The notes under the pieces are model-generated. The model was not told the DNA's origin. It made no database searches and worked only from the letters and a program-made list of their open reading frames with translations. The position numbers and the translations under genes are program-made. Source: Liolophura sinensis (Eukaryota; Mollusca; Polyplacophora; Chitonida; Chitonidae). Taken from it: a DNA stretch of 64,000 nt. The stretch covers positions 24,585,400-24,649,399 of the forward strand of contig NC_088305.1 of the NCBI RefSeq assembly GCF_032854445.1, read 5' to 3'. The stretch's first letter is position 1. Each line of letters begins with the position of its first letter. This document shows, in pieces, positions 1 to 56,800 of this stretch.

Positions 1-359
1 ATTACCAGTGACACTTACCACTGACAATAACAGTGTGCCAGCCTCCAGGCCATACACAGGCCATCTAGATGTTACCAGTGACATTTACCTCTGACAACAA
101 ACAGTTTGCCAGTCTAAAGCACTGACACAGGCCATACACAGACCCTCTAGATATTACCAGTGACACTTACCACTGACAACAACAGTGTGCCAGCCTCCAG
201 GCCATACACAGACCCTCTAGATGTTACCAGTGACACTTACCACTGACAACAACAGTGTGCCAGCCTCCAGGCCATACACAGACCCTCCAGATGTTACCAG
301 TGACACTTACCACTGACAACCCACACACAGACCCTCTAGATGTCACCAGTGACACTTAC
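1..359 (-). repeat. Minisatellite built from RCCD1 exon end and its splice donor
   Basis: About five units of roughly 70 bp. On the minus strand each runs GGAGGCTGGCACACTGTT, then a TGTCAGTG/GTAAGTGTCACTGG block, then an intronic spacer. The first part copies the last codons of exon 360-481 and the middle copies its donor (exon: GTCAGTG/GTAAGTGTC). GTAAGT-type donors therefore recur near 313, 243, 173, 83 (as GTAAATG) and 13. The unit nearest the exon is shortened. Confidence 0.85.
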
Positions 360-3187
360 CACTGACAGCAACAGTGTGCCAGCCTCCGGCACTGACACAG
401 GCTATACGCAGGCCTTCTAGTTGTTCCACTAGGGTCAGGTTCAGAGAGCTTTCTGTAGAGTTGTGACCCAATTGACCTCGGCTGACAGAAATGAAGAGAC
501 AAATGACGTGAAACAGTTTGTTTAATAAACGGCAATACCCTAATTCCTTGGCAATTTCGCACACGAAAGGGTAACTCTGAGTAAAATTTAAGCACATTTT
601 AAATTTGATTTTGGAGAAAAAACTACACTGGTTGGAGGGCTGAGTTTAAGGGCTTCACAAAAAGTACAGTTTTATCAGTCCACACGGAAAAATGTCGTCA
701 GAATTTGATTGAATAAACATCTTACAAGCATGCGAAAAGGTCGAAGAATTACAATAAAAATAAAAAAAGATTAAAATCATCTTCATCAGACATATTTCTG
801 AAAACTGGATCAAAAAATGCTTTACTTACAATTGTTTGCTTCAATATGATTCAGCATTTGAATATTACCATTCCAAAGTGTGCTTTATTGTCCATATTTT
901 TATTTATTTATTTATTTATTTATTTGATTGGTGTTTTACTCAAGAATATTTCACTTATACCACAGCAGCCAGCATTATGGTGGGAGGAAACCGTGCAGAG
1001 CTCAGGGAAAACCCAGGACCATCCGCAGGTTGCTGCCAGACCTTCCCACGTGCGGCTGGAGAGAAAGCCAGCATGAGCTGGACTTGAACTCACAGCGACC
1101 GCATTGGTGAGAGAATTGTGGGCCATTACGCTGCGCTAGCGCGCTAACCAACTGAGCCACGGAGGCCCCTCCATATTTATATTATTAGCTGTTAGGTTTC
1201 AACTTCACCTCCTACTGGTTCAGTTACAACATCTGATTTCAGGAGGTTTGTCTGGTACTCAGGTAACATGAAGCCGTAGAAACCTTTGGGGAGGAGGGAG
1301 GTGTCCTTGGTATAGGTATAGTAGTTACAAATACAAACAACACTTAACCAAAATCAAATATTAACCAAAATCAAATACATAGTTTAAAACCTGAAAACAC
1401 CCCACAGTATCAAAGCTTACCTGCCCAGTCCACAGGTATAAATCTGGCCCGTCTCCGAGAGCACGACAGTATGTTCCTTCCCACAAGTCACCTGTGTCAC
1501 CTGACAGGGTAAACTCAGCGGATTCCATGTCACAAGAGGCTGCAGATCAGATGAATCTTTGTCCCTGAACTCCAGCTCACCACACCTGCCATCCTCTATA
1601 TCAACATTATTTTATTTATTATTTATCAAATGTATCTTCATGCTTTTACACATGAAGATTATACCATCTATATCATCTATTTCATCTGCTAAAAAGTTTA
1701 ATTGTGAAGGAAAATAGAGCAGCACTCGCTGAAGGGAAAACATAGCATGTTAAGAAAATGACAACCTTCAAGACAAACCACCGTACATTGCTATGCACTT
1801 GACAAACTTTCAGGCAAACTACAGCACATTACTAAGCACTTGACAAACTTTCAGGCAAACTACAGCACACTGCTAATCACCTGACAAATCATAATACATT
1901 GTTATGCACCTGACAACATTCCAGGCGAACCACAGCACATTGTTAAGCAAATTTATATATATATATATATAACATTTTAATAAATACATAATCAATGTAA
2001 ACTTTCAGTACCACAACATTCAAAAAGAAAATTCAGCAAAATTACCTGAACATCCCAAGAGTGAATTTTCTCCTGCGGCCAAAAAGGACAGATTTATCTG
2101 CTGAGAGTTATCCCCCTTTGTTGTCACCACATAATCCCTTTTCACAGTTAACCCATCACACTTACAGCCTTCCTCATTGAAAGTTTGGAGTTTTCCATCA
2201 TCCAAAAGCAGCCAAAAGTCAGTCCACTTTACAGCAGCAGATGTGACTTTAGCGTGCGTTTCCAGTCGGCTCCAACCAAAGGTGTTGTGATTGGAAATGA
2301 AGGCTGATCCAAAATCTGATGGAGTAGTAATACAATAAATATATCCACTGACTGTTTTTCTTTTTGGACAAGATCATCATTTATTTTTTTGATTGAAGTT
2401 TTATGCCGCACTCAAGACTATTTCACTTAAACTACAGAGGCCACCATTATGGTGGGAGGAAACCAGGTAGAGAGACCATAGGAAACCTTCAACCATCTGC
2501 AGTTACTGAGATATTATGCTGTGATACCATGCTAATGTCTCTGCCACGAAGATCCCTGACAAGATCATAAGCTTTTATTTATAAAACAGTTTTCTCTGTG
2601 TCTCTAGCCTTACAAAGATAATCACCAAACCAGGTAGTTCAAATAAACGTTAAGGTCTATTTTCAACAATTTCTGATATTAACAGGGTCACATGCTGTAG
2701 AACTGTTCTGCATGTTTACTGTACTTTCTACTCAAAGAAATATTTATTTATTTATTTATTTATTTGATTCGTGTTTTACGCCGTACTCAAGAATATTTCA
2801 CTTATTCGACAGCGGCCAGCATTATGGTGGGTGGAAACCGGGCACAGCCCGGGGGAAACCCACGACCATCCGCAGGTTGCTGGCAGACCTTCCCACGTAC
2901 GGCCAGAGAGGAAGCCAGCATGAGCTGGTCTTGAACTCACAGCGACCGCATTGGTGAGAGGCTTCTGGGTCACTATGCTGCGCTAGCGCGCTAACCGACT
3001 GAGCCATGGAGGCCCCGCCTCAAAGAAATAGCCAGGAGGTAAACCATGCAAGGTAATTCAAAATGATTGGTATACTGGAGAAAATTCAATTAAGTCTTCT
3101 ATAATTTATTTCTCCATTGAATTTCATCGAAATGGGACCTGAGGAAAACCAAGGTAATTTAACATGGCTAGCTGTTAATATAAATAA

Positions 3188-3249
<62 letters not shown>

Positions 3250-4144: not shown

Positions 4145-4920
4145 CACAGTCACGTTTCAGACAAATTTTTTTCGGAATTTTGACAGTTTTCAACTTGACC
4201 CTAACATGTGCCTCACATGTAGTCATGTAAACAAAACTGCCCAACTGAACCTGTAACCTTCGACATGGACAGACCGATAATTCATGGGCCTTAACAGGAA
4301 GTTACGCTCGATACTCGAAAAAGTTGAAAACGCCTCGTGCGTCTTTCTTCACTTCCATCGTGTCGTTTTAGTTATGAACTAAACACTAGAGTGAACCACT
4401 TAGATTCCTCCTACACGAGACTGGTGTGGTAATTTTTTTTTTTACGCACGGAAATACTAGTGTACCCCTAAAGACGGCTGCCGTTCTGTACAGATCGAAA
4501 TAAAGCCAGTCACTCTTGTGTGTGTGGAGGTACATTTACTTACACTTTAGTGGCGGCATCATATCACTGGGCTTAAAACTCAAGCGATCGCTGATTTCAT
4601 AGTAGGTTTTTGGTACAAGAAACACTTTACAGTACAACCCGATTGTAAGCACTCTTGTTGCAGTTGGAATAAGTAGAGAAAGCAAACGTCAGCGGATGTT
4701 GAAAAACAACAACGTCTTACTAAACACTAAGCTTTGCAAACAACAAGACTCGAAGATGATCTGCCCGCATGTAACCTAGTGTCTCGACAACATACTTTAT
4801 GACGTATGGTATCTGTTGAGAGAAGATTAGGGCTACGGGTAGATAAGAGCTCTGCTTCTCCCCTGACACATTTTGTAATTGTATCACCATAATTCAGAAC
4901 CTTTCACTCCTACTCTAGTT

Positions 4921-5378
4921 CCTTTTCTTATACTTGCTTTGCGCCATTGAAGTCTTGACGCTAACAGTGTTAATTTCGTACTCAACAAAGGTCCAGGCCG
5001 ATTGTCTTTGGTATCAAACAAGTCTTGTGCACATAAAAGACACCAACCTAAAGGCCTGCTTTCACACCACACTTCCATAATATGTCCTTAATCACTTACC
5101 TCTCGGCTACTGCCGCCATCTTCCACTGCACCACAAAGAAGCAGGACGTGCATAACAGCTCAAGATGTCGGCATTGACCAAGTAGCTTGTGCCAAGGGAA
5201 GCCTTCGTGGCTTTAATAAGTCTATTCTAAAGATAGTAGAGACATATGGTGACAGGTGCTGTTGGTGTCTTTTATTTGCATGAAACTTGTTTGATACAAA
5301 AGACAATAGGCCTGGAAATATGTTCAGTACAGAATTAACATATGTAAGCATTGAGACTCCAAAGACAGTATAAGAAAG
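4921..5378. repeat. Long imperfect inverted repeat flanking the promoter
   Basis: The left arm is about 4921-5047 and the right arm about 5261-5378. The left arm has GGTATCAAACAAGTCTTG and ATAAAAGACACCAAC; the reverse complement of the right arm has TGTATCAAACAAGTTTCATG and ATAAAAGACACCAAC. I estimate 75-80% match. The spacer holds the AAGATGGCGGC motif. It could be a decayed foldback element. Confidence 0.75.
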
Positions 5379-5404
5379 TTGGGTTCTTTTGGGGCTTATA
5401 CTTA

Positions 5405-5520: not shown

Positions 5521-5600
5521 CAATTTGTTCTTTACTAGTACACAACTAGTCTTTCAAGTTTAATGATTTATTTCTTATCAGTTTTTTTTCTTCTCCACAG

Positions 5601-8900: not shown

Positions 8901-11900
8901 TTAAATGATTTTTAAAAATATTTTTAGAACATTTTTGGAATACTGCCTTATTAAATTATTCAGCTTTAGTGGCTGACTTTATGTTTCACTTTAATGAAAG
9001 TACAATAATTCTTCAACCATTTTTCCTCTTTGCAAGTTGTTTATTCAAGCATTTTCTGAAGGTATTGTTCTGTGTTGACTGATAAGATTGTACTTTTTGT
9101 GAATAATTTCTTTTTTATCAAAGATATAACTAAGTCAATTTACAGTGAAACTGCTTATTCCAAAGGCTGTCAGACACAAAAGAATTCAGAGTGAAGAAAT
9201 TTTGTACTTGTATTTCAGTGTCATGTCAAATTATGTAGCACATACAACAAAACAATAAAACAGTGTGATGTATTTTATGCTATATTTTGCAGGTTCTCAA
9301 AGTTTCACTGTGCTACTTGTGTTTTGGATTTCAAGTGGATGTGGAAAAGCCAGTCTGTGCTATATTCCACAGGTCCACAAAGTTTCTCTGTGGTACATTT
9401 CCTTTGTAATATGTTTCAGGTAGATGTGGAAAAGCCAGGCTGTGGTATATTTTGCAGGCCCACAGAGTTTCTCAGTGGTACATTGCTTTGTAATATGTTT
9501 CAGGTAGATGTGGAAAAGCCGGGCTGTGCTATATTCTGCAGGTCCACAAAGTTTCTCTGTGGTACATTTCCTTTGTAATATGTTTCAGGTGGATGCAGAA
9601 AAGCCAGGCTGTGCTATATTCTGCAGGTCCCACAAAGTTTTCTCTGTGGTACATTTCCTTTGTAATATGTTTCAGGTGGATGTGGAAGAGCCAGGCTGTG
9701 CTATATTCCGCATGTCCACAAAGTTTCTCTGTGGCAGGAGACACCAGTGGCAAGGTAATATACATGTACACAGATAAAAATACCATTTAGATGAAATTAC
9801 ACAGTAAAGTTGGAATTGTGTAGACAATTTTTAGAGTGAGATTGGAAGATAACCCACCGGAACCTCACAGGAGTATTATTTAAGCATCTGGTATGCATCT
9901 CCCTGTTGGCAAGGTTGATACCTGCTGTAGGCTTCGTTATCACCCTTGCTTTACTGTGTGTATACAAGTCTTCAGAAACGGTATTCTTTCAACAGCCAAT
10001 GGCATTGCGGCCCTTGTATTTCTGCCAGGGCATTTTCAGCCAATCATTGATTGTCCATTGTTTCGAAGCAAATGCATGTATGTTTGGATCCCATTTATTC
10101 CTTGGCACAACATTATAAACGCCAATAAGCAGTTTTATGAACGCTGATAGATGTGCTTTTATTGAAACGAACAGGCACCTCAAAGTCACTGTACTATTAT
10201 AGGCAATACTGGTGATAGCGAAAGAGGCCGAACGGCTGATTGATATAACATATGTTTTTGTTGTTTTCATCACTAATTTCTATCAAGCCTTTTTTGCCTC
10301 AAAATGCCCCCCCCCCCCCCCCCCCCCCCCAACTTTTAAAATATCGATGTGTAAGGAGTTATGTTTGCGCTAGGACTTCTGTGGCTAGTGTGAAATAGAC
10401 TTATTCTGTAGATTTATAGTTTTTCTTAGATTTCTGAGTAAAATGAAAATTAGGTGTAAGTTGGCAATGTTGGTGAACCTGATTATGCTAAACTAAATGT
10501 ATTAGTGCTGTATAAAAAATGTGACACTACAAAGAGTCTAATTTATACAGTTTCACTTTTGACTGTTGAAGAAATGCTGATAGTTCACCTTTATATTAAT
10601 AAGTAATAATCTTTCTTGAGTTTTGGTTGAAAGGCCTTATGAATTGAGAGATGAATAAATACTTGTAGAAACTAAGTCATGGGTTTTGCATAAATAAAAT
10701 AAATAAATTGTAGAAACCAATAAGGTATACGCTGTTAGTCATGTCGTATGATGGCTAAAATTTGAAATCGTTAATAAAATAATGCTGTACTTAACAAAAC
10801 TACAACAACAACAACAAATTGGTTGTAGGTGACTTTGTTTGACCCCAACACAATGATAGCAGAACATGTCCTGGAGGCTCACTCAGGCACGCTGTCTGAT
10901 TTTGATCTCCATGGCAACCTGCTCGTGACTGCTGGATTTTCTAACAGGTGAGGGTCATGTGTTTAGAATTGCCAATCACAGGTAATCTTTGAAAGGTCAG
11001 TTGTGTTATTTACCTTTGTGAAGTACACTTGATATGAATTGATGTGGACTATAATCGCATAGAAAACAACTCAAATAAATTTGAATATCAGTATTGAAGT
11101 CCTCTTTGGAAAAAAGAAATTAATTTTGGTGTGTGTGTTTGTGACTGTGCTGCCACAGTTGATTGGGATTGTCACCCTGTATATTTTAAAAAATTCTATA
11201 TTATAAATTGAGCAATGTGGTGAAGGGAAAGAAAATCGTTTGACTGAAGCAGATGTAAACATCAGTAGCAAGAGTTCATCCACATTGCCAACATTTGACT
11301 GTTTTTAATTCAGTGAAAAATAAATCTTAAAAAAAAAACAGAAAAGAATAAATAAAAATGGTTTTGATGATCTTTCCAGTAGTGCTTACTTACCTTAAAG
11401 TGACATGGTGGCCCAAATATTTAGTATCGGGTATTTTTCTCAAGAAGTAAAAGTCACAAGCTTTTGACCTCACCCACAGCATTGTACGTTAAGTGAATGT
11501 TTAGAAATAACAAAAAAAAAAACTGAAAACTGAAAATTCTGCCAGAATATTTAAATAAGGCGCTGTCAATTAAGTGAAAATGGAGCATGGGCACAGCGCT
11601 CAGTAAAATTTATGTGTAAATAAACATAGCTGACTATGGCCATGAAAGAAGGACTTATTCCTCACTTGTGACAGGATCAGCCCAAAAGAGGCATAGAAAA
11701 GAGTTCAACAGGTTGACAAACAAGTCTAGAGTTGTAATTGGCGGTCAGTTTGAACGGTGGAGTACACTGAAGAAAGAGAAGGGTCTTACGAAGCACTAAG
11801 ATGTCGCAAAACTGCTTCGGGATTGGTGGATGCAAATGTTGTTGTTGTTGTGGGCAGGGGTGTTAAACTTCAAAGAGACACACGTTTCTGACTCTTAGTG

Positions 11901-32627: not shown

Positions 32628-32664
<37 letters not shown>

Positions 32665-32806: not shown

Positions 32807-32856
<50 letters not shown>

Positions 32857-41800: not shown

Positions 41801-42876
41801 GAGCTATTCCAGGTCTCTCTTACCCAGACACCTGGGGCAGATTCCACAAAGCCATTTCTGACTTTATTCAAAATTTTTTTACAGCGCTCAGTTTTGGGTA
41901 CTGAAAGTTGAAATTTTGATACATTTGGCGTAAGATAACACTGATGAGGTGGACAAAATGTTACCTTATAAAACCAAAGAATGAACGTAAAGATGGTGTA
42001 CAAATTTTGACTTATGTCAGAAACGTCTTTCTGGAACCTGACCCAGACATCACCGACTCAGTCATTCATGTACACGTACATAATTCTCATGACGACGTGT
42101 ATTAAATTTCTTATGTACAAGTCCCATGTGTATCTGTAGGTGCCAAAAGACCATATCCTGGACACTGTGGAACTTTTCCAGCTCCCGCGCCAGAGGATGA
42201 TCTCTCTCAAGTTCCTTGCCTGGTACTTCCTGAGTAAGTCACACAGAAAATGGCCACATGGCTAAAGTGTTCTCCAGGCCAAGCCTTTCAGCAGTGAGAT
42301 CACGGATTCAAATCCATCTCCTGCTCACTCAGCAGTAGCTTTACATCATGAGGTAACTGCTTTGCCATCTTGGGATATGTGTAGGTTTCACCCAGAGCCT
42401 GTACCCTTGGTAGAATTTGAAGTCTTGGTTTTCTGTACCCATTGAGGTAACGAGTTCAAATCCAACTCTTGCTGGTCATCTTCGGCTTTCCCACTATACG
42501 GTTTGCAGTAACCTAGCCAACGTAGTGTAGAAAGTACAGCCTAAACATTTATAAGAAAATCCAAAAATAGACTTGAGAAGAATATATTCTGCATTTACTT
42601 CTAATGTAAGAAATTGCTTGCTGAAAGATCAAATTCCTGTTCAGTAATTTCAAGGACGTACGTGTTACAGAACTAAAGATCCAGTCGTTCACACATGATT
42701 CTGTGGAGGACGCCCGCACAGCGCTGCAGCTGTACGAGAAGTACCAGGAGATGTCGCAGGAAGGGATGGACACGGTTCGGGCGCGCATCAAGGAGATGTA
42801 CGAGTTTGGCCGCAAAGTTCAGTGGAAGATTCCAGAGGTGGAGGAAGAGGCAGATTCCCAGCTGGCAGAATTGTGA
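5693..42876 (+). CDS. PAN2: PAN2 deadenylase catalytic subunit, 28 coding exons
   Basis: PAN2-PAN3 removes mRNA poly(A) tails 3' to 5' in the cytoplasm. Exons: 5693-5716, 5785-5979, 7390-7562, 8424-8545, 9676-9754, 10829-10947, 12326-12470, 14509-14650, 14995-15071, 16340-16467, 17524-17696, 18505-18665, 20323-20451, 22893-23042, 24102-24259, 24504-24643, 27907-28019, 29700-29798, 31879-32015, 33136-33268, 34098-34298, 35876-35966, 36940-37094, 37382-37467, 38597-38654, 40686-40865, 42140-42233, 42671-42876. All joins keep phase except a +1 in exon 4 and a +1 in exon 5; discounting these two bases gives about 1221 residues (human about 1200). Order: WD40 propeller, linker, USP-like domain lacking its catalytic Cys, DEDDh nuclease. 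All other boundaries fit GT-AG apart from one GC donor. Confidence 0.95.
5785..16467 (+). CDS. PAN2: PAN2 N-terminal WD40 propeller (exons 2-10)
   Basis: The propeller is the PAN3-binding, substrate-guiding module. Blades visible include [40 protein letters not shown] with [42 protein letters not shown] with [20 protein letters not shown], and [20 protein letters not shown] with [20 protein letters not shown]. These are followed by [20 protein letters not shown] and a run ending TLLSDWP, the PAN2 signature at the propeller exit. Introns 6 and 7 have TTGTAG-type acceptors with (GTT)n-rich tracts. Exon 4 and exon 5 hold the two frame breaks described separately. Confidence 0.92.
5980..7389. other. 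PAN2 intron 2, nothing recognised
   Basis: AT-rich unique-looking DNA. Short open frames (for example 6615-6806) have no splice context or family resemblance. The same holds for intron 3 (7563-8423) and the first part of intron 4 (8546-9280), apart from a block at 9000-9090 that recurs at 15345-15430. Confidence 0.6.
8424..8545 (+). CDS. PAN2: PAN2 exon 4 with a +1 frame conflict
   Basis: After TTTGTAG/AG, joining to exon 3 (GAATATTC) reads YSAEENA, then TGA at 8439-8441. One frame over, the exon gives [17 protein letters not shown] and [15 protein letters not shown], clear PAN2. Aligned to vertebrate PAN2 (Y-LLDENED-MHSLL), the spacing fits exactly if GCAT at 8437-8440 were three bases instead of four. 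Using the next AG (8429-8430) as acceptor restores the frame (YSKMHEMQ) but drops conserved residues. The call is an indel or assembly error, or an unusual acceptor. Confidence 0.8.
9280..9754 (+). repeat. PAN2: Five-copy tandem amplification of PAN2 exon 5 with its acceptor
   Basis: Units of about 84 bp: TTTGTAATATGTTTCAG acceptor, then GTGGATGTGGAAAAGCCAGG exon body, then AAGTTTCTCTGTGG. Starts of the exon-like parts are near 9337, 9421, 9505, 9590 and 9676; the first lacks the TTTCAG acceptor. Only the last continues to ACACCAGTGGCAAG and the donor GTAATA (9755). It reads [20 protein letters not shown], matching PAN2. Copies 1-3 read V/M-DVEKPGC-type peptides; copy 4 carries two extra bases. 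The true exon is 79 nt, one base too long for GDTSGK to follow in frame. Confidence 0.88.
10307..10330. repeat. Poly-C tract
   Basis: About 24 consecutive C in PAN2 intron 5. The length is probably unreliable in any assembly. Confidence 0.95.
11395..12253. mobile_element. TTAA-flanked MITE-like element with short terminal inverted repeats
   Basis: The left end TTAAAGTGACATGGTGGC mirrors the right end (reverse complement TTAAAGTGACATGGTCGC). TTAA at both edges suggests piggyBac-type target use. No transposase frame is visible in the 859 bp. It ends about 70 bp before the start of PAN2 exon 7. Confidence 0.7.
12511..12850 (+). mobile_element. tRNA-derived SINE, family B
   Basis: The tRNA-like head has an A box (TGGTCTAATGGTTACAGCG) and a B box (GGGATCAAACCC). 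The body contains GGTGTCAGTGTAATGTTGAC and GTGCTTCAGTGGCGCAGCAC. The tail ends TTGTAAAGAATGATATAAAA. Related copies: 24717-24968 and about 33760-33945. Confidence 0.75.
12901..13175 (-). mobile_element. Family A SINE, diverged
   Basis: Tail at left, worn tRNA-like head at right. It is flanked by an imperfect direct repeat (TTGAAAAAGT before, TTGAAAAGT after, near 12891 and 13182). It lies in PAN2 intron 7. Confidence 0.85.
13710..13786 (-). mobile_element. Family A SINE fragment
   Basis: Only the segment CAGACCTTCCCACATACGGC through the decayed head (CTTGGCCACAGGGACC) remains. Confidence 0.6.
13981..14508 (+). repeat. Intron segment duplicated in PAN2 introns 7 and 14 (copy 1)
   Basis: About 520 bp collinear with 23313-23838. 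Shared blocks include TTCACAGGGTTGC, AAATTTGTGCA, CATAACATA-GAAGTCACT, TCATAGTTGTGA and CTGCTC-ATCAGG. Copy 1 runs right up to the exon 8 acceptor (TGACATGCAG ending at 14508), and copy 2 ends in a matching position with AAATCCAG. Confidence 0.8.
15815..16155. repeat. AT-rich tandem array in PAN2 intron 9
   Basis: Repeats of CACATTAATAATTGATTTAT with GAGTTGTTC or GGCCTCATAAGAATTC linkers, a higher-order alternation of about 30- and 65-bp units. It lies close upstream of exon 10 (16340). No exon-derived part was seen. Confidence 0.85.
16571..16776 (-). mobile_element. Family A SINE, head missing
   Basis: Tail and body intact (GTTTTACGCCGTACTCAAGA to CACAGCGACCGCAT on plus); the tRNA-like head is absent. 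PAN2 intron 10. Confidence 0.85.
17524..17696 (+). CDS. PAN2: PAN2 exon 11, linker between propeller and USP-like domain
   Basis: It encodes [20 protein letters not shown], then a basic, Ser/Asn-rich stretch ([26 protein letters not shown]). GYAPNP is conserved in PAN2, where this linker winds toward the PAN3 dimer. Acceptor TTTTTTTGCAG and donor GGG/GTGAGT are strong; the exon runs phase 2 in and phase 1 out. Confidence 0.9.
18505..35966 (+). CDS. PAN2: PAN2 USP-like domain, catalytically inactive type (exons 12-22)
   Basis: The domain begins near [20 protein letters not shown] and [15 protein letters not shown]. In active ubiquitin proteases the Cys box is G/N-x-C-x-N; here Ala (PNAYCN) replaces the nucleophile, as in all PAN2. 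[20 protein letters not shown] with [49 protein letters not shown] with [19 protein letters not shown] and [14 protein letters not shown] follow human PAN2 in order. CxC-GH and CxxC pairs are probably zinc-binding. [20 protein letters not shown] and [10 protein letters not shown] close the fold. The window adds a CCCH-like insert in exon 19. Confidence 0.93.
18690..18800 (+). mobile_element. tRNA-like fragment (family C)
   Basis: TTGCCTTTCAGTCACTAGGA with a B box (CTCGGTTCAATCCCGGCC) just after PAN2 exon 12. It resembles a tRNA head but is not foldable as a real tRNA by eye. Confidence 0.5.
18945..19795. repeat. 54-bp tandem array, about 15 units, in PAN2 intron 12
   Basis: Unit GACATGATCAAGAAAAACTT, then GGCTACTGATACTGTG, then TAAGTCTGACCCTTAGTC. 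Early units alternate two variants (ATGATTTAG and ATGATCAGG), a higher-order pattern. Because 54 is divisible by 3, a minus-strand frame of 126 codons appears; it is a repeat shadow. Confidence 0.92.
22336..22604 (+). mobile_element. Family A SINE, near-intact, poly-A tailed
   Basis: Starts GGGGCCTCCGTGGCTCAGTC. Exact target-site duplication TCAACACATAAAC at 22323-22335 and 22605-22617. Unlike most copies, the tail is plain poly-A rather than AAAT repeats. Confidence 0.93.
23313..23838 (+). repeat. Intron segment duplicated in PAN2 introns 7 and 14 (copy 2)
   Basis: Partner of 13981-14508, same orientation, moderately diverged. It sits deep in intron 14 with no following exon, so its acceptor-like end is presumably unused. 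Confidence 0.8.
24102..24259 (+). CDS. PAN2: PAN2 exon 15, acidic proline-rich insert
   Basis: Acceptor CTGGACAG/GAAACG follows exon 14 in phase 0. The peptide runs [18 protein letters not shown], then [16 protein letters not shown] and [14 protein letters not shown]. It is low-complexity and about as long as the poorly conserved segment between HQ-rich and LFS blocks in human PAN2. Donor AATAA/GTGAGT, phase 2. The start is the only choice that avoids the in-frame stop just upstream. Confidence 0.8.
24717..24968 (+). mobile_element. Family B SINE
   Basis: Head GGTGGCCTAATGGTTAAAGC (A box), body with TAGTGTCAGTATAATGTGAC and TGATACTTCATTGGCAGCGG, matching 12511-12850. A family A SINE was later inserted at its 3' end. 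Confidence 0.75.
24984..25259 (-). mobile_element. Family A SINE with 14-bp target-site duplication
   Basis: Direct repeat AACTCCCCATAGGA at 24970-24983 and 25260-25273. Full length. It landed in or next to the family B SINE, which dates family A as younger at this site. Confidence 0.93.
25495..25700 (+). mobile_element. Family C SINE fragment
   Basis: TGTGCTTGCCTTTCAATCGT head part, then GTGTGACCTTGATGACAATG and CCTTGAAGACCATTTGTCTT. The latter two blocks recur at about 37625-37700 (GTGACAATAAGCGATG, CCTTGAAGACCATTTGTCTT). Confidence 0.6.
25850..27470. repeat. 53-bp tandem array, about 30 units, PAN2 intron 16
   Basis: Unit TCTAATCCTGTAGCGGGTCC, then ATTTCATGTATGGCTGGGAG, then AGACAGCATTCTC. 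Variant units (GGGATCTGCAGCA; TGGCAGGTCC with AACTGGGGGACAGCATAC) recur in blocks, showing higher-order duplication. The unit has a faint likeness to exon 16's end plus donor, too weak to claim. Confidence 0.93.
27745..27842 (-). mobile_element. tRNA-like SINE head (family C)
   Basis: Minus strand: GGGCCGTGGTTTAGTGATTA (A box), TGCTTGCCTTTACACAGG, then GGTGTGGGTTCAAATCCTGC (B box). It lies 64 bp before PAN2 exon 17. Confidence 0.65.
28020..28420 (+). repeat. PAN2: Minisatellite built from PAN2 exon 17 end and its donor
   Basis: Exon 17 ends AAGTACCAACCTCAT/GTGAGTGC (28019/28020). Immediately after it, about 12 units of 27-31 bp repeat AGTACCAACCTCATGTGAGT and GCTTAACTT. The first several retain CAT/GTGAGTGC, and later ones drift (CATATAAGTG, CACGCAAGTG). 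Each good unit is a decoy donor for PAN2 transcripts. Confidence 0.9.
28600..29512 (+). repeat. 37-bp tandem array with a poly(A) hexamer in each unit
   Basis: About 25 units of TAAAGTAATATGGTCTAAGA, then GTAATGTGATGCCCAAA. At each junction the sequence reads CCAAATAAAGT, so AATAAA recurs in the PAN2 sense every 37 bp. It lies in intron 17, ending about 190 bp before exon 18. Confidence 0.93.
29961..30191 (+). mobile_element. Family A SINE, internally deleted
   Basis: Head CGGGGCCTTTGTGGCCGAGG; part of the body is missing; the tail reads CAATCAAATAAATAAATT. Possible short target duplication AATCTGC (29954-29960 and 30192-30198). Confidence 0.85.
30378..30575 (+). mobile_element. Family A SINE, head missing
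   Basis: Begins near GGTCACTGTGAGTTCAAGTC (B box) and runs through GATGGTCGTGGGTTTTCCCC to an AATAAATAGATAA tail. PAN2 intron 18. Confidence 0.85.
31596..31715 (+). mobile_element. Family A SINE 3' fragment
   Basis: CAGTCTGTCGCCAACCTATA through GTGAAATATCCTTGAGTACA; no tail repeat. It lies 160 bp before exon 19. Confidence 0.75.
31879..32015 (+). CDS. PAN2: PAN2 exon 19 encoding a CCCH-type zinc finger
   Basis: Phase-0 acceptor (ACATAACAG/TTTATAAAG) gives [19 protein letters not shown], then [18 protein letters not shown] and GEGE. The spacing C-x5-C-x4-C-x3-H fits a CCCH finger, an RNA-binding fold. Human PAN2 has a Lys/Glu-rich loop at this place with no such motif as I recall it. The exon joins exon 20 ([20 protein letters not shown]) in phase 2 (GG/GTATGC to TGTAG/G). 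A longer frame in another phase covers the same bases but fits neither neighbour. Confidence 0.82.
32120..32390 (+). mobile_element. Split tRNA-like element
   Basis: A clean A-box half (GCCCTTTAGCTCAGTTGGTA then GAGCGCTGG) at about 32123-32152 is separated by some 190 bp from a B-box half (GGTTACAAGTTCAAATCCAG, about 32335). It is best read as a SINE with an internal insertion, not a working tRNA gene. Confidence 0.45.
32461..32665 (+). mobile_element. Family A SINE 3' half ending in an inverted copy of itself
   Basis: Body GGGAAGGTCTCCCAGTAACC, 3' end GTGAAATATTCTTGAGTATG, then after a 10-base turn the reverse complement CATTCTCAAGAATATTTTGC. Arms are about 28 bp with a tiny loop (about 32555-32622), followed by a (TA)n run at 32632-32661. 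Confidence 0.8.
32795..32853. repeat. (TA)n microsatellite
   Basis: Second AT dinucleotide run in intron 19, less than 200 bp after the first. Confidence 0.95.
33474..33605 (+). mobile_element. Family A SINE fragment
   Basis: CCTCTCACCAGTGTGG through GATTCAAGTCCAGC to CGGTTTCCTCATACTATAAT; 3' tail missing. PAN2 intron 20. Confidence 0.75.
33760..33945 (+). mobile_element. Family B SINE 3' fragment
   Basis: GGTTAGAGCAAGGAAACT, then AACTTCAGTGAGGCAGCACT and GTCAGCATGGGCTTGCCCTG match the body of 12511-12850. The head is absent. Confidence 0.6.
34299..35530 (+). repeat. PAN2: PAN2 exon 21 end duplicated, then a 29-bp array of about 37 units
   Basis: Exon 21 ends GACTTCTCCATCACACCTAT, then AGAAAAG/GTGAGATG (34298/34299). 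A 71-bp tandem copy at about 34328-34399 repeats GGTACCTG through GGAAAAG with the donor changed to ATTAG. From about 34440 to 35530 the unit GTGATTTCTCTATCACACAT + ATGGTAAGG repeats. Lined up with the exon end (TTCTCCATCACACCTATAG-AAAAG-GTGA), it is visibly the same sequence. Each unit offers a TATG/GTAAGG donor-like site. Confidence 0.88.
35580..35738 (+). mobile_element. 5'-truncated family A SINE
   Basis: TGCTGGCTTCCGCTCTGGCC to CACCAATCAAATAAATGAAT. Inserted after the 29-bp array, 140 bp before exon 22. Confidence 0.85.
36026..36210 (-). mobile_element. Old family A-like SINE
   Basis: Tail TTTATTTGATGGGTGTTTTA and ACTCGAGAATACTTCACTGT, then a strongly diverged body (AATTTAGGAGGAAACAGGGG). 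Possibly a subfamily. Confidence 0.55.
36459..36672 (+). mobile_element. Family A SINE, head mostly missing
   Basis: AATGACCCAGGAGCCTCCCA through AGTATGGCGTAAAACACCAG and an AAATAAATG tail. An older 3' fragment lies just before it (about 36385-36440). Confidence 0.8.
36940..42876 (+). CDS. PAN2: PAN2 DEDDh exonuclease domain (exons 23-28)
   Basis: The poly(A)-specific 3'-5' nuclease. Exo [14 protein letters not shown] (Asp and Glu of DxE). Exo [18 protein letters not shown] (Asp). Exo [23 protein letters not shown] (His and Asp). All four acidic residues and the His are present, so the enzyme should be active. [48 protein letters not shown] and [12 protein letters not shown] match human PAN2 closely. 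The chain ends [17 protein letters not shown] and stops at TGA 42874-42876. Exon 23 uses a GC donor. The human C-terminal hydrophobic tail is replaced by this short acidic end. Confidence 0.95.
37091..37098 (+). other. PAN2: Non-canonical GC splice donor of PAN2 intron 23
   Basis: AATCAG/GCTAGT at 37094/37095. Only this cut joins FVSLNQ to EESELRSDG in the frame and length of vertebrate PAN2 (FVTLNEEEAELRSDG). No GT donor nearby gives the same join. The matching acceptor TTTGATAG ends at 37381. Confidence 0.85.
37520..37730 (+). mobile_element. Family C SINE fragment
   Basis: GGTGACAATAAGCGATGCTC and CTCCTTGAAGACCATTTGTC are shared with 25495-25700. A short frame here (65 codons) is not coding. 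Confidence 0.5.
38345..38470 (+). mobile_element. tRNA-like fragment
   Basis: TGTCTAATACGGTTAAAGTG (A-box-like) and TTCGGATTCGGATCTCGCTG (B-box-like), then AGTTGGGAGGTTTGTAAGG. Worn. Confidence 0.4.
39078..39227 (-). mobile_element. Family A SINE, head side cut off
   Basis: Tail and body to GCAGGTTGCTGACAGACCTT, then abruptly unique sequence. PAN2 intron 25. Confidence 0.85.
39530..39800. repeat. Tandem array, about 85 bp with internal 28-bp subunits
   Basis: Three units, each with CGTACACACAAAGTCAACTT, CAGACACACAAAGTCAACC and CACACACGTAGTCAGTC variants. PAN2 intron 25. Confidence 0.88.
40894..41096 (-). mobile_element. Diverged family A SINE
   Basis: ACCTGATTGGTGTCTCTTAC tail side, CAATATGGTGGGAGGAAACA body, TTGAACTCACAGAGAACGCT near the worn head. 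It follows exon 26 by 30 bp. Confidence 0.75.
41466..41740. repeat. 81-bp tandem array, about 3.5 units, PAN2 intron 26
   Basis: Unit TTTGACAAGGTTCTTGCATA, TCCTGCCTAAAGACAAAAGG, TTTCTCATGTGCGTGGAAAG, GGACAGTGGTTTCCTCCGACC. Since 81 is a multiple of 3, three stop-free frames appear on both strands; none is coding. Confidence 0.92.
42265..42500 (+). mobile_element. tRNA-like SINE remnants in PAN2 intron 27
   Basis: Two B-box-like pieces (ACGGATTCAAATCCATCTCC near 42302; ACGAGTTCAAATCCAACTCT near 42449) with decayed surrounding heads. Confidence 0.45.
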
Positions 42877-43135
42877 TGTCTGGGATTTCATCTGATGGAA
42901 TTGTGATGTCAGTGATTTTCATCTGGTGGCATTGTGATGTCAGCGATTTTCATCTGATGGAATTGTGATGTCAGCGATATTCATCTGGTGGAATTGTGAT
43001 GTCAACGATTTTCATCCACAGTGAATTGTGACGTCAGCGATTTTCATCCACAGTGAATTGTGACGTCAGCGATTTTCATCCACAGTGAATTGTGATGTCT
43101 GGGGAATTTCATCGACTGTCTGGCGGAATTGTGAT
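42862..43135 (+). repeat. PAN2: Minisatellite built from the PAN2 stop codon region
   Basis: The coding end GCAGAATTGTGATGTC (stop TGA 42874-42876) is followed by eight units of 31-34 bp: GGAATTGTGATGTCAGCGAT + TTTCATCTGAT. Every unit repeats the AATTG-TGA block. Later units read TGACGTCAGCG, creating CRE-like TGACGTCA near 43029 and 43063. The array forms the first 250 bases of the 3' UTR. Confidence 0.9.
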
Positions 43136-47204: not shown

Positions 47205-47812
47205 CTGTTCGCACTTCACTCTCTTTTTCCCACTCCTAAAACAGCATTTGGGTTATGATTGCTCAATGTTTAAGCCTCACCCTCTCCTTCCACTGTTTAC
47301 AATAGCATATGGGTCACCGCTGTGCAAGGTTTAAGCCTCACTATCTACTTCCACTGTTCAAAGAGCAATGGGGTCACCACTGTTCAATGTTTAAGCCTCA
47401 CCCCCTTCTTCCACTGTTTACACACAGCATATGGGTCACCACTGTGCAAGGTTTAAACCTCGCTATCTACTTTCACTGTTCAGAGAGCATTTGGGTCACC
47501 ATTGTTCAATGTTTAAGCCTCACCCCATCCTTCCACTGTTTACACACAGCATATGGGTCACCAATGTGCAAGGTTTAAGCCTCGCTCATTCTTCCACTGT
47601 TCAAGCAGCATTTGGGTCACCACTGTTCAATGTTTAAGCATCACCCTCTCCTTCCACTGTTTACACACAGCATATGGGTCACCACTGTGCAAGGTTTAAG
47701 CCTCACTCTCTCCTTCCACTGTTTACACACAGCATATGGGTCACCACTGTTCACTGTTTAAGCCCCACTCTCTCCTTCCATTCTTCACACACAGCATATG
47801 GGTCACCACTGT
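47205..47812 (-). repeat. MOB4: Minisatellite built from the MOB4 C-terminal codons and stop
   Basis: About ten units of roughly 60 bp. On the minus strand each contains AGTGGAAGGAGAGAGTGAGG + CTTAAAC, copying the coding end (GTGGAAGGAGAGAGCGAGGC, TAA at 47815-47813). These are followed by GGTGACCCATATGCTGTGTG. Some units alternate CTTGCACAG and ATTGAACAG variants. The array starts directly after the stop, so the first 600 bases of the 3' UTR are repeats of the last codons. Confidence 0.92.
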
Positions 47813-50800
47813 TTAAGCCTCGCTCTCTCCTTCCACTGCAGCCAATGCCTGCTCCTCCAAGATTGGAACAATCAAGTTGTCTTTCGACATCAGGTTGTAT
47901 TTGGTCACAAATGTTGTAAATCTCTTGCACAAATTAGTCTCATTCTACAACATAAATAAAACATTTTTTTTTTTAATTTCTTTGCATTTATTGCACTTAT
48001 AGTAGCATGTGACAATATTTATTTATTGTTAGTGTAGATGAAACTACATGTAATTTACGGAAAAAAACGTAAAGTGAGCTACAGGAACATTTATTTCTTT
48101 ATTTAATGTTACAAGATCTGAATGGAATGCTAGAAGCCTGCTAAAAGGTGCCGGGCTAGTGGTGAGCTGCTGGCATGCCACTTGGGAGTTCATATGTCAA
48201 GACTGATGTTATACACCGCACTAAAAAATTTTCAGTTGCATGATTTGAGTCAGGTTTCTGAGTGGAGCAAACTGGGTGGAGCCTGGACATGAGGACGTCA
48301 CCAGACCTTGCTGGACACATTCTGAGAAACCTCGTACAGCTGCCACCAAATCAACAGGAGCTTTAACCATTGACCTCATTGGCTAAAGTCTACAGAGCTT
48401 GCAGTTGAACCTTTTAGTCCCCTTGTGCAATGGTGAGAGCCCAAGGCAGAAGAGTGAGTGAGTGATTGAGTGCTTGGGGTTTAACGTTGTACTTAAACAA
48501 TTTTCCAGTCGTATGACGCTTTAGGAGTCAGTAGAGTACATGTACGTGTAATGTGCCTCGTTCTTGCAGGACGGATTTCCATGGCTCTTTTATCTAGTGC
48601 TGCTTCACTGAGACGACTTACTGAAGGAAAGTAAGCTTCCCAGCCAAAGCAATTATACTGGTACAGGTTAATCCCCTTAATTCCCTTACACTATCCCCTT
48701 AATGTTGAATGCCAAGCGAGGAAGCTACAACATTCTCTTTTAAGGTCTTAGGTGTGACTCAACTCAGACTGACCCTGGATCTACCGCCCCCGACCAGGGC
48801 AGAAGACAATTAAATAAATAAAACCATTAACTTAAAGGCAAAGAAAACACCAAAATAAAAAATGTATCACATGAAAGACCGTTAACAACTGTCCAGGAAA
48901 ATAGTTGGATTAATTTTTTTACAATTTGTTTAAAATGCATTTGAATATTTTATTCTATGGCAGATTTTTCTGGCCACAATACTATGGGCAACGTCTTATA
49001 AGCTTTTTGTAACTTTAGACTGCAACATTTCATCATTCAAAATGCATATACATATAGACCTATGCACGCATTCGCCAATCTGACCTTGAAATGAATTATT
49101 TCAGGCAAAAAGGTATAGATGTAACGTAATTGATCCCTTCCGGGTCATAACAGACCACTGTACAATCTGATCTGTTAACACAATTTTACTCAGTCAGAAA
49201 AATTTCAAAACAAAAAAAAAATATTTTCCTGGACAGTTTTAGTCTTTCATTTCATGCTTCATTTTAGAGTGGTTTTTGTCTTTAAAGAGGTTTTGCCAGA
49301 GACTATGCAAAACTCAATATTCCTCAATCAAATGAAATATTTACCTATGTGAACTCTTTACAAGGGCAAAATGATTTAAAAGTTTATAAAACGACCCGCA
49401 TTATATATTTCACACACTGTACTATGGCTTTTGAACGTAACATATGCAAAGAGAAAGCTGATATTTGTTAGAGGTAATAATTTGGGCAATTCTCAGAAGA
49501 ATAGCAAAAACTCTAATGGATTTGCACTTATTAATTTTGTTCAAAATATCTCCAATATGGTCTCTTTAACTTAAAAAAACTGACCTCATATTCATCAAAC
49601 AGTGTTCGATGATGAAAGTATGCATGTGAGAAAATCCTATAGACTCGCCGGCAGACCGACCCTAACTTAGCCACGGACGCTTCCTTTATACTGACCCTGA
49701 AAAGTGCAAAACAGTAGAAAGGTTAGTGAGACTAAGATGCATCATATTGGTGTCCTGCAGGAAAAGTTTCATACAGGGTTTTATACTGTATTTCACCCAA
49801 AATTTAGCTTTTTCAAGTGATATTTCACTTGATGACTGATATATCCACATTATAGGGGCTCTGACCAGTATTTTTTTTTTTTTTTTTTGTAAAGTTAATT
49901 TCTTACGATAAAAACTTAGGTCTGGGTCCCCCTAGGCTCTAAATATAGCTACAGATCCCCCCCCCCCCCACCCCAATTGCAGTTACACATTTGCCCCTGA
50001 TCTCTAAATAATGTTATACATTTTCCCCAAGCTCTAAAGATAGTTATACATTACCCCCTGGAACCCACAGATAGTTACATTTCCTCTTGGGCTCTAAACA
50101 CAGTTATACATTTCCCCCCAGGCTCTAAATATAGTTATACATTTGTCCCTGGAACCCACACAGTTACATTTCCTCTAGGGCTCTAAATGTAGTTCTACGT
50201 TTCCCCTCGGCCTCTAAATATAGTTATACATTTTCCCCTGGACTCTAAACATACATTTTCCCTCAGGCTCTTAATATAGTTACACATTTCCCCCCAGGCT
50301 CTAAACATAGCTATACATCCCCCTCCAAACCCTCTAAATACAGTTACACATTTGCCCATGGGCTCTAAATACAGTTATACATTTCCCCCTGGGCTTTAAA
50401 TATAGTTATACAATCTTAGAACACTGTAATATGCTGTTACTGGTTGAACTTTTGCTTTTACATGGAATTGCATCCAGCAATTTCAAAGATATTAAAAACA
50501 AATTTTTTCAAGAAAACATGAGCATACTGTATACATAAACAAAGTAACTCTGAAGAAATTAATTTTGACAACTTCAATGTTTTGATTTTAATTAAGTCAT
50601 CCTCAGAGGAATTGTCCTGAGATGTGATTGGTTTATAGATAGATCAGCCCAGAGTACATGTATGTGTGTCACGTTCAAATAACCCTGCCTGGGAAGCTGA
50701 AGACGAGAGTTGTTTTCAGTTTCCAGCGTTTTTAAGCTCTCTACCAGCTTTGCTTATAAAGACATCTGGTTACGACTTTTAACCATGCACTGTCAGGTCC

Positions 50801-53800
50801 TAGTTTTTTGATACTGAGCACAAGATACATGAGAAGATAGACTTACCTGCTAGGGAAATACTTATTACTGTTCAGTAGACATGCAGCGCCATCTAGTGTG
50901 TGACGAGTGTAGTCGATAGCTGGACACTGTGGACAAAACAATATCCTAATGAGGTCATCTGAGCAACACAAATGGTTTGCCATGTTGGTGTTTTCCAGAA
51001 GCAGGTAAGACCAAATGTAGATGCATTTACAGCGCTGTCTCACTAAAACGCCATGCTAACACTAACCAGACATTTATTGCTGAAACATGTAAGATCTTCA
51101 CATGGTAATTGTTAGCATGTATTTTAACTGAAAAACAATGCAAGCTGAGAGGTGGGATTCCAGGCCTAATGTGCAAATCATGTGAATGTCCTTACCTCTT
51201 TGGGAGTTTTATGGGCAGCGCAGAGGAAGATCCACTGCTCCGTCGCTGTCATCTGTGTGCAAGTCTCCGGGTTGCACTCAATCTGGAACATAACACAGTA
51301 AAGAATCCCTCAATTACACAAATACACTAAATCTGGAATGTAACACAGTGAATGTCCCTCAATAACACACACTCAATCTGGAACATAACACAGCGAACGG
51401 CCCTCAATAACACAAATACACTCAATCTGGAACATAACACAGTGAACGGCCCTCAATAACACAAATACACTCAATCTGGGATATAACACAGTTAACGGCC
51501 CTCAATAACACAAATACACTCAATCTGGAACATAGCACAGTGAACGGCCCTCAATAACACAAATACACTCATGTGAGACATTTGTCCACTAGGATATCAC
51601 ACTACCTTCCCAGCATTCCTCAAAACAGATCGCTAGAACATCTAGAACCTCAGAAATAAGAAACTCAGTGATGACAACGTTTTGGTTAAGCACTGTTAAG
51701 CACACAACATAGCATCACATAACACAGCATCATAACACAGGACCCAGAAGTGTCTCACCAATGCGGTCGCTGTGAGTTCAAGTCCAGCTCATGCTGGCTT
51801 CCTCTCCTGCCATACATGGGAAGGTCTGCCAGCAACCTGCGGATGGTCGTGGGTGATACACAGCATCACACAACACAGCATCATATAACACAGCACCACA
51901 CAACACAGCATCATATAACACAGCATCATATAACACAGCATCACATAACACATCATCACATAAGACAGCATCATATAACACAGCATCACATAACACAGCA
52001 CCACCTAACACAGCATCATATAACACAGCATCACATAACACATCACATAACACATCATCACATAAGACAGCATCATATAACACAGCATCATATAACACAG
52101 CACCACACAACACAGCATCATATAACACAGCATCATATAACACAGCATCACACAACACAGCACCACATAACACAGCACCACATAACACAGCACCATATAA
52201 CACATCATCACATAACACATCATCACATAACACAGCATCACATAGCACAGCATCACATAACACATCATCACATAACACAACATCACATAACACAGCATCA
52301 CATAGCACAGCATCACATAGCACAGCATCATATAACACAGCATCCCATAACACAGCACCACATAACACAGCACCACCTAACACAGCACCACCTAACACAT
52401 CATCACCTAACACAGCATCACATAGCACAGCATCACTAAACACAGCATCACATAACACAACATCACATAACACAGCATCACATAACACATCATCACATAA
52501 CACAGCATCACATAGCACAGCATCACATAACACAACATCATATAACACAGCATCACATAACACAGCATCACATAGCACAGCATCATATAACACAGCATCC
52601 CATAACACAGCACCACATAACACAGCACCACCTAACACAGCATCATATAACACAACATCATATAACACAGCACCACATAACACAGCACCACATAACACAG
52701 CACCACATAACACATCATCACATAACACAGCATAACATAACACAGCATCATATAACACAGCAACGTATAATACATATACACTGAATTTATTCTCTGCTGC
52801 CCCATCACATCTATTTTTTAATAATGGGGCTTACTGAAAGGGCTTACTGCTTACTGAAAATATCTGCTTATACAGCGGCATCCAGTCTTAAGGGCCTTTT
52901 CACACATAATTCCATTCCATCTACAACACATACCTGTAACTTGACTGCCAGACCATTCAGCTCCATGCAAAATTGTCTGTTGAAAAGAAAAATTTTTTTT
53001 TTAATGTTTCGGATTAAACACTGTATTTTTATGCTTTTTGTGCACACACAAGCTTAGACTTGCAATGGGACTCAAATATACCTACATGTACAGCATGCAT
53101 CTGTTCAGTTTAAATATGATTAGTCATCATTGTCACAATCAAGGATAATTCATTTTAATCAAATATGGCCTGAAGTGATCCTTCAGTTATAAAGCATAAC
53201 CAATTCTAAACTCTCAATCTATCTAGTAAAACAGACATTCTCTGAGTACTGCCATCTACAATTCAAGTGTTGACAAAAAAGGCCCTAATTTTGTTACCAA
53301 CACAGCGAGCAAAAAGAAATCTGGCCTGTTGTTTATAACAAAACCAGGAGCCAAGCTGGATTAGACACAAAAGGTGCTTGCTCACTGTGAATGCCAGGCC
53401 ACTAACCAACAATATAGCATGCTCGATTCTAGCTCTCACTGGGGTTTGTCAAGTACCTTGCATCGGTTTACTCAATGCCCTCCAGGTTTCACCACCCAAT
53501 CCACAAACCTAACCCCTGTCACATCACAGAGTTATTTATTCATAATTATGGCACTTAACACCAGTCAAATGAATAAATGAATATACCGTACGATTTGAAG
53601 GTTGTTGGATTGACAGGGACTTCACGTGGTCTAATTCAAGAGGCTATTATATGTTTACAAACTAGCAGTAACTTTTGAGTGCGTTCTGATTCTTGTGATA
53701 TATTGGAACAGAAGGCAATGTCATATTTCTCAGAACACAGCGGTATTTTGTCACATGACATCCAGTTAAGGAAGCTCCTCGCTGATGTCTTTCAGGATAG

Positions 53801-56800
53801 TTAACATGACTCCAAAAACAGCATTTGAAGTCCTTTTAGGCCCCATAAATAGCCTCAACTACCACACATGTATGGCTCATCCATTTCCTCACCTGAGATG
53901 TTCATACTTCCACACGCCCTCATCCTGGCCCTCAGGGGGCGTCAGTATCTCCTCAATGTCAGTGATGTCCTTACGAATCGCCTGCTGTATGAACTAATGG
54001 AAGGACAAAAAAAAAAAGATAATCAGGTCCCATGCTTGCACAAAGCAGTGGGGCGCATAGCCCGGGATGACAACGCTTGTAAGGCTTTGTGTAGTCATGG
54101 CTGGGTCCCCTTTAGCCCAGTAGGATGACGTAAATTTTGGAAAACAACTGATTACTATCATACCTCGCCCATCCAGCTATTCCTTTACAATGCTTAGGGT
54201 TCTAGGGTTCTAGGGCACCTGGCTGTCAAAATTCTGAGACGTCGATCATCCCAAAGGTAAATATCCACCCATATTTATCCTTTCCGCTGACTTTTCATTT
54301 ACAAAATGGCCAACATCTACACGGGGCGCATTCGCGGCCAGGCAGCTGGGTACAAAACTATCCTCCTCTTCAATTATGCTGTTTATGAAGTCATTTGTTG
54401 TTATGCGGTCATGTGCAGGCTGGTTTGCGTCCCATTTACATTATGATGGCCCCAAATGGCGCATCACGGAACCAAACTAGAGCACGTGCCGTTGTTTTGA
54501 CATGTCTGAGTGACCTCCACCAATAAAACCAGCAAAGGTCAGTCGCTTCGTATCGAACTGTCTGGCCACACATGCGTGTAGTGCAGATGGTGGCCATTTT
54601 ATGTTGGTTTTGGGAGTTGGGATGATCACTATTATGATTACTGAGTCAGTGATGTCCTTAACCAATCACCTGCTGTGTGAGCTAATGGAAGGACAAAAAA
54701 AAAAGACATGTATGAACAGTGGGGATGTTTTACCAGCTTGGGAGATTTATAACAAGCGTTTTATTCTTTTTTTTTTTTCCAGAAAGACATCTTACGACAA
54801 ATGTCAAAAATTTTCAAATACTACACACGGACATGTAGGTCCATAATTAATTTCACTTACTATGTGATTTTAAAAGTCAAGCTAAAGAGAAAGGCATCTT
54901 ACGACGAATGCCAAAAATTTTAAAATACTACATATGGACAAACAGGCATATATTCCATTTCGCTTAATACCTGGTTTTAAGAGCAAAGGATCATAGAAGT
55001 CGTCTGAATGAGCCGGTATTCGGTTTGTCGATTGAATAAAAAACTCAATAACTGGTTATATTTACACAACTTGAGGTTGCTTTTTGAAATATTCAAAATT
55101 TTACATAAACTAAATATGAACATAAAGTTTCGCCAAGCAACCTGTTCACGCTACAAGTGATCTCTCATTTACGGAAATCTTCATGACCCTCTACGTGGAT
55201 TAGATTTAAGAAGGCAATTTTGGAAGCAGAGGGGCCTATGAAATCAAACACGACACACAGTAAGCTTCTTTGGTCTATGCCAAATCAGTCCTCATGAATA
55301 ATTTGACCAACTTCATCTTCCGATCGTTCTGTTTTTGACAATAGCATAGCGTGAGTGACTGCACCTGTGCGCACTTGGTTTCCTCCCCCTGACGTCAGGT
55401 GGTGCTAATATCTTCGCTCCTTACAAGGCAAGCACGCAGGTTGCCTCCTGGTTTCAATTTCAGGATTCTGAAGTTTGATAAATGGCTTATAGCAGTGAAA
55501 TTAAAACCTTCTTGGCCAGACATAAACATTTACCAGCGACACTGGTTCACTATAAAAGCATTTTTTGTTCAAAGACTGAACATGTAGATGTGTGCCAGAC
55601 AGGACTTCAGGCCGCTGACATTCAGCCGTACTCATTGTGGCAGTGACAGTTCAATTAATGGACACATAAGGTAGCAGTGTGTTTTTTCTCTCTAAATATG
55701 TAGTATGTATATTTAAAGATCATTATTGTCAATAGTCCATGGGGTAAATCACTGATTGTGGGTCTCTTACTTTTCTAATTACCAGTGGCTGATTTTTGTG
55801 GAAAATTTCATGTTATTAGTACCCTGTCAATAAGTCAAATCAGACTTCGTTTTGAACCGCTTCTGTTATCTTTTTTTTTCTTATTTCCTTTTCTTGTTTT
55901 AGATAATGCACATAGCATTCAAGTGGATGCCTAATTCAGATTAGTTTCTAGTATATATGTAAGGTGCTACATGAATTTTGATTTTCTATGTTTCTTTTTT
56001 TTTCTTTAGATCATTTTTGACATTTCCTTTTACAGACTGAGAGTGACAACCACATATTCCGTATGGCATTAATGCTTGACCATTCTGTCTTGTTTCATGA
56101 CTACTGAATATTTTTTTAAAAGTGATTTCAAGATCAATTGCTCATGTTGTGAGTTCAGTCAATCTAGACTGATGCTCTAGGTTTGTAAGCTTCCTGGGCA
56201 GGTCTTCACACTTCACTGAAATGGTATCCTAATATATGTGTAACAATAACTGCAATGTGAGCTGCTTATTGGTTTGCAGCATCAACTAGGAGGCCAGACT
56301 TAGCTTACATACAGGCAATGATAATAACTTCAATCAATGAAGTATATTGTAACATATAAAAATATTCAATTTTAGTACTTCAAACAGCCGATTGAAACAA
56401 AAAAAACTTAATTTCAGTTGAAACAAAAACTCAGTTTGGCTAAGAAAGTGGTGGCTGGTATGAGGAAAAACGCCTTCTACAAACCCCTGAAGAGTCAAGC
56501 TTAATGATGGAGAGGCAAACTCTGTTTTACAGTACCTGTTGTACAGCGAGTGTACTGTCCATCTCCTCAAATGCTTCATCTGGCCATCTGCACCAGTCCT
56601 AGAATCAAAAGATAAACCAGTTACATGTACAACACGCACACGTCATATATCATTGGTTGTTGTAGTCATGAAACACAGAAATATCTGACCAGAACCTGCA
56701 GCAGACACTGTGATGAGCCTGACGACATGCTGCAGTTCTAGTCAGAAATCGCTAAATCATTAAGGTCGTGAAAGCGTGGACGAAGCAGAGTTGTCGAAAG

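Follow-up and report, generated by a model that had tools for sequence, protein, structure and literature searches.

Tandem arrays carrying copied exon edges in three genes of the chiton Liolophura sinensis, and a candidate new intron in PAN2

Examination of a 64,000-nucleotide stretch of the genome of the chiton Liolophura sinensis (NC_088305.1, positions 24,585,400 to 24,649,399 of assembly GCF_032854445.1; hereafter the window, with positions counted from its first base) reveals tandem arrays whose repeat units carry copies of an exon edge, namely a splice donor, a splice acceptor or a stop codon. Such arrays occur in all three genes of the window:

RCCD1: left end of the window, minus strand; identified by the Pfam RCC1 domain.
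PAN2: about 5.8-42.9 kb, plus strand; placed by spliced alignment.
MOB4: 57.4-47.8 kb, minus strand; placed by spliced alignment.

The data are one haploid assembly of this species, comprising 609.46 Mb in 632 contigs, with 96,433,062 bases in contig C1. The assembly report gives 632 scaffolds, a longest scaffold of 96,433,062 bp and 14x HiFi data (PMC11068029), and the species of the published chiton assembly has been corrected to Liolophura sinensis (PMC12441733). The exons of PAN2 and MOB4 were obtained by spliced alignment to human protein sequences, with several PAN2 exons then adjusted by eye, while those of RCCD1 were set by eye on the sequence. Checks independent of these human proteins matched MOB4 to phocein (7k36/5yf4) and one PAN2 segment to the PAN2 chain of 9qtu, and the Pfam domains PAN2_N, UCH_1, RNase_T and RCC1 were recovered. 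In PAN2, no exons were located from 29799 to 33135, the placement of the junctions near 23473/24102 is doubtful, and one exon end, counted as 37087, probably lies at about 37094; a GC donor was at first suspected in this gene, but checking did not bear out the suspicion. The RCCD1 model is partial, as are those of MCM8 and MCM9 among the control genes described below.

Tandem Repeats Finder (TRF) returned 48 rows on the window. Merging of rows with a period of at least 10 and a score of at least 80, our main count, gave 19 arrays within the bodies of the three genes, with the left flank counted in, and an exon edge lies inside seven of these (three donors, two acceptors and two stop codons). 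These arrays, with the copies related to them, are:

1..367, minus strand: RCCD1 donor mirage (the term is explained below), the right end of a ~1.5 kb array (unit ~70 bp) extending beyond the left end of the window; each copy brings the end of the exon with a GT donor; real donor at 360.
9329..9734, plus strand: PAN2 exon 5 mirage, 85-bp units (exon part 58 nt, acceptor-side intron part 27 nt); copies c1-c5.
28006..28370, plus strand: mirage at a PAN2 donor, unit 29 bp; real donor after 28019.
34257..34400, plus strand: 74-bp tandem duplication at a PAN2 donor; real donor after 34298.
34444..35541, plus strand: PAN2 29-bp array of 38 copies, apparently derived from the donor edge at 34298; best copy 27/32 identical over the edge.
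42868..43099, plus strand: array over the PAN2 stop codon (42874-42876), unit 31 bp.
47239..47813, minus strand: MOB4 stop-codon array, ~62-bp units; end of the coding sequence at 47813.
51275..51571, minus strand: mirage at the acceptor of MOB4 exon 5, unit 49 bp; real acceptor at 51282.
54645..54704, minus strand: lone copy of the acceptor region of MOB4 exon 3, spaced 688 bp from its source at 53958-54016; 55/59 identical.

An earlier note, made from the letters of the window alone, had listed eight duplications or arrays at exon edges, and seven of them are indeed tandem arrays that include a real edge. These are the RCCD1 donor array, which proved larger than claimed in that it extends ~1.1 kb further left, PAN2 exon 5, the PAN2 donors at 28019 and 34298 (the latter with both the 74-bp duplication and the separate 29-bp array that aligns over the edge), the PAN2 and MOB4 stop codons, and the MOB4 acceptor at 51282. 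The eighth, at MOB4 exon 3, is a single 60-bp copy rather than an array. In each of five pairs tested, the alignment of the edge to its array scored above all 200 shuffles. The unit spans an exon-intron boundary in one RCCD1, three PAN2 and one MOB4 array, so that both sides of splicing are affected (three donors and two acceptors). Leaving PAN2 exon 5 aside, every copied donor and the MOB4 stop have their copies downstream of the working edge and every copied acceptor has them upstream, an arrangement that the reading frame demands. Two further repeats of the window lie apart from the edge arrays. An intron of MOB4 contains a 905-bp array with a 15-bp unit (51858-52762) that has long open frames on both strands, and a tRNA-SINE-like element (SINE, short interspersed element) with the shared core GCCAGCATTATGGTGGGAGGAAACC occurs at 15 places (e.g. 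968, 2815, 12985, 25060, 30106 and 60068); we presume that it resembles a molluscan SINE.

Arrays of this kind have been described in amphioxus as mirages, which are minisatellite-like tandem duplications that cross from intron to exon, on the donor as well as the acceptor side, in the genes Adh3, the globins BflGb6 and BflGb9, PGBD5 and TnC (PMC3087553, PMC3902484). Mirages are further characterised by leaving normal splicing intact and by varying in length, in somatic tissue too. As in those genes, the chiton units span the boundary at both donors and acceptors, and the sizes are comparable to those given there (29-85 bp in the window, against 10-72 bp in Adh3 and 150-160 bp in the globins). 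The chiton, however, is a mollusc and not a cephalochordate, and its arrays also span stop codons. By analogy, we regard the chiton arrays as the molluscan counterpart of amphioxus mirages. No report of mirages in molluscs was found in a literature search that worked from titles and the beginnings of abstracts and left most subscription papers outside its reach; the kind is already known, and the host lineage is new as far as this search shows.

The earlier note had further proposed that each array adjoins its source. Genome-wide DNA searches, which can miss common words, were made with four arrays. Those at PAN2 exon 5 and RCCD1, and the array at 25.8 kb that holds no edge, gave no match beyond their own locus, while the PAN2 array at 28 kb matched its own locus and, elsewhere, one partial stretch at 71% identity. 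Given that the matches are essentially confined to the respective locus, the four searched arrays, edge and non-edge alike, are local births; growth in place is thereby upheld for the three of the seven edge arrays that were searched.

It had also been claimed that arrays touch exon edges more often than chance would allow, given a coding fraction of only 6-7%. This yardstick is wrong because edges, not coding bases, must fall within the unit, and the 51.3 kb of gene body in the window contain as many as 77 of them. We therefore replaced it with a null in which an array grows from one random segment, so that its probability of holding an edge is approximately unit length times edge density (hereafter the unit null). 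Seven arrays with an edge stand against 2.3 expected in the window under this null (Poisson P=0.01; with four score thresholds and two tolerances tried, P lies at 0.003-0.026). Random shifts of whole array spans, the comparison that the note had proposed, show no excess, with 8.3 expected for the seven seen. A TRF-free test, in which the 16 bases on each side of an edge had to recur within 1.5 kb with at most eight mismatches, detected copies at 7/75 splice edges of the window, against 3.7% of ancestral-weighted intron positions.

Since the window had been picked for the pattern, we modelled 11 independent control genes, namely CLTC, PRPF8, POLR2B and MCM2-9, from 280,000 letters. The control counts leave out start edges and any exon of less than 25 nt, while the 17-nt exon 5b of PAN2 (see below) was kept in the window. 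The controls have 469 counted edges and 46 arrays, with at least one array in every gene. Ten of the 46, in 6 of the 11 genes, contain an edge or at least touch it, the edge being a donor in 8 and an acceptor in 2, against 6.3 expected under the unit null (P=0.11); at zero tolerance the count is 7/46 against 5.2 (P=0.27), and across thresholds and tolerances P spans 0.067-0.35. Random placement of spans predicts 18.8, well above the ten seen. True copies of the edge are present in six of these ten arrays (MCM2, MCM6, PRPF8 with two, MCM8 and MCM9; 5 of the 11 genes), and the edge is merely touched in the other four (POLR2B, PRPF8 with two, and one in MCM9). The TRF-free test found copies at 7/460 control splice edges (1.5%), comprising 6/231 donors and 1/229 acceptors; among ancestral-weighted intron positions the share was 3.6%. 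A previous run with nine control genes had yielded 4/390 against 3.5%. A preference for donors among the controls was not significant by span (8 against 2 acceptors, P=0.11), and the TRF-free counts are 6 against 1. Furthermore, 48 arrays without an edge (12 in the window, 36 in the controls) are uniformly placed along their introns (Kolmogorov-Smirnov P=0.82, folded 0.36), which rules out the clustering towards exons that raw distances had made plausible. Elsewhere than in the window, then, arrays take up exon edges at roughly the rate set by edge density, or below it. The biggest edge array seen is at an MCM9 acceptor, with 43 further copies of the edge in a 64-bp array over 2.8 kb (positions 4778-7567 of the piece L019, contig C6). 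About 60% of 20 kb in the MCM9 region (C6:81166001-81186000) is tandem repeats, and one intron there is 3,828 bp long, of which 3,648 bp are array.

Several observations weigh against capture at the density-based rate. The excess of the window under the unit null is one, although the pattern was picked after looking. Counting each array once, 7/77 window edges have an array against 10/469 in the controls (Fisher P=0.005), and window and controls pooled give 17/65 arrays against 8.7 expected (P=0.008), a value that inherits the selection because the window was chosen for this very pattern. The control edge arrays are mostly at donors (8/10 by span, 6 against 1 by the strict test), and the controls are conserved housekeeping and replication genes that may be more constrained than RCCD1, PAN2 and MOB4. 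The window excess, the pooled value and the share of donors would also be expected if exon edges, donors above all, were hot spots at which transcription-linked breaks, R-loops or sequence features of the splice sites promote tandem duplication, as would the ~1.6-fold excess in the controls. That excess, however, is non-significant at either tolerance, the arrays without an edge do not crowd towards exons, and TRF-free copies are rarer at control splice edges than at intron positions, and we accordingly hold such hot spots to be unlikely. The window is a high draw that was noticed after the fact, and a general excess of arrays at exon edges is not established outside it; a modest bias towards edges may exist.

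A different account is that selection retains arrays at edges, where the benefit might lie, for example, in having splice sites or stop codons in reserve. The RCCD1 array speaks for it. Its 21 donor copies in about 1.5 kb (window 1-367 plus positions 5801-7000 of the flanking piece L001) all keep GT and 20 of the 21 keep an equal donor score, which neutral copies need not do, and the donor 9-mer has 1.1% mismatches, compared with 10.6% for the 31 bases that flank it. When the centre of comparison is slid along the unit, the RCCD1 donor region stays near the minimum of variability. Of the eight donor arrays with at least two copies, six likewise show less variation in the donor 9-mer than in its flanks, but the other two (PAN2 34298 and MCM2) show more, and the gapless donor-centred alignment itself favours the donor. 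With a sliding centre, the PAN2 28-kb array has no minimum at the donor, and both PRPF8 arrays and that of MCM6 show other stretches equally conserved. Moreover, the ten control arrays on edges against 18.8 by random span indicate that edges tend to be avoided. Selection on decoy donors is clear in RCCD1 only, and as an explanation of the arrays at large we regard it as highly unlikely.

We therefore propose, with considerable confidence, that these are minisatellites born in place in a genome rich in repeats, which capture an edge when the segment first duplicated happens to span one. A segment of 30-100 bp would be duplicated, probably by replication slippage or unequal exchange, and would then expand into an array. 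Both processes are established minisatellite mechanisms. If the first duplicated segment spanned an exon edge, its copies would carry the donor, acceptor or stop codon. The array would persist where the exon-proximal copy, presumably the one used in RNA, keeps the gene working, and the remaining copies would fall into the intron or the 3' untranslated region. Of the origin at exon edges suggested in the earlier note, the derivation of the arrays from the adjoining edge, in place, is retained, while no general rule emerges from the 11 control genes.

The PAN2 exon 5 array has a layout of its own. Its five copies c1-c5 are preceded by a degenerate part-copy, and the last, c5, adjoins GAGACACCAGTGGCAAG, the remainder of the conserved exon 5, with four extra nucleotides. 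The resulting exon (9676-9754) is 79 nt long, and its frame is broken by this 4-nt insertion, which creates a CAG/G acceptor. The last copy was rejected as the sole exon 5 because it shifts the frame. The features proposed instead are:

9504..9561, plus strand: copy c3, putative functional exon 5a, 58 nt; no amino-acid change relative to the copy consensus.
9562..9737, plus strand: putative new intron, 176 nt, built from array units; donor TGTG/GTACAT (weak), acceptor GTGGCAG/G.
9738..9754, plus strand: putative exon 5b, 17 nt, left over from the original exon 5; contiguous with c5 apart from the 4 inserted nt.

Spliced alignment joins c3 to 9738-9754, giving 58+17=75 nt in frame and restoring the conserved protein, and the joined exon encodes FLCGDTSGK, against FFCGHTSGK in 9qtu, continuous with the PAN2 chain. 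The acceptor at 9738 has the top score (5.6) within 9200-9800. Copy c3 has 0 non-synonymous and 2 synonymous changes, against 11 and 3, plus indels, in the other four copies, a weak contrast (P about 0.08, worked by hand). An acceptor at 9542 would give an open, in-frame exon of 213 nt (length by hand), yet conserved residues are lost with it. A genome-wide DNA search for a second PAN2 exon 5 locus found none. An ancestral intron at this position appears less likely because c5 runs into 5b with only four extra nucleotides, as in an unsplit exon.

On the sequence alone, then, PAN2 may have been caught at the birth of an intron, with the internal copy 5a joined to 5b over a 176-nt intron made almost wholly of repeats, though we advance this reading tentatively. 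A segment of acceptor plus exon would have been amplified to five or six tandem copies, a repeat junction would have supplied the donor, and the 4-nt insertion in the original exon would have supplied the acceptor. That exon, now out of frame, would no longer serve by itself. Against it, the donor is weak (-0.9; 4/232 control donors score that low or lower) and exon 5b is very short at 17 nt. A further point against it is a set of apparent single-base frame slips at homopolymers, in the MCM4 region (contig C5) and in PAN2 exon 3 (window ~8431), which suggests small indel errors in the assembly. These slips, together with the 14x HiFi depth noted above, could also be taken to mean that the arrays or the frame oddities of PAN2 are assembly artefacts. 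However, the 4-nt insertion of exon 5 is not at a homopolymer, the copies have diverged in most arrays (TRF matches mostly 74-98%), and arrays are present in all 11 control genes, all of which makes artefact an extremely improbable source.

The layout proposed for PAN2 exon 5 resembles a model of globin intron birth from mirages (Figure 7 of PMC3087553). In that model, a central copy becomes exon 'a', a new acceptor in the original exon gives rise to exon 'b', and the intervening intron consists of mirage units. The globin model is hypothetical, whereas PAN2 exon 5 is a real sequence that appears to fit its layout. Introns born by duplication are also known, including that of a potato gene that gained an intron by duplication across an intron-exon boundary (PMC4974935; reviewed in PMC3443670). 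PAN2 would share with these the boundary-crossing duplication that leads to a new intron, and would differ in its multi-copy array, its donor at a repeat junction and its acceptor at a 4-nt insertion.

Copied exon edges in three of three window genes and five of 11 others show that such copies are frequent in one mollusc at least; beyond the window, their rate calls for no special exon-edge mechanism. Mirages constitute a standing supply of spare splice sites, and the chiton genome is therefore a good one in which to test the origins of new introns and exons, starting from the candidate at PAN2 exon 5.

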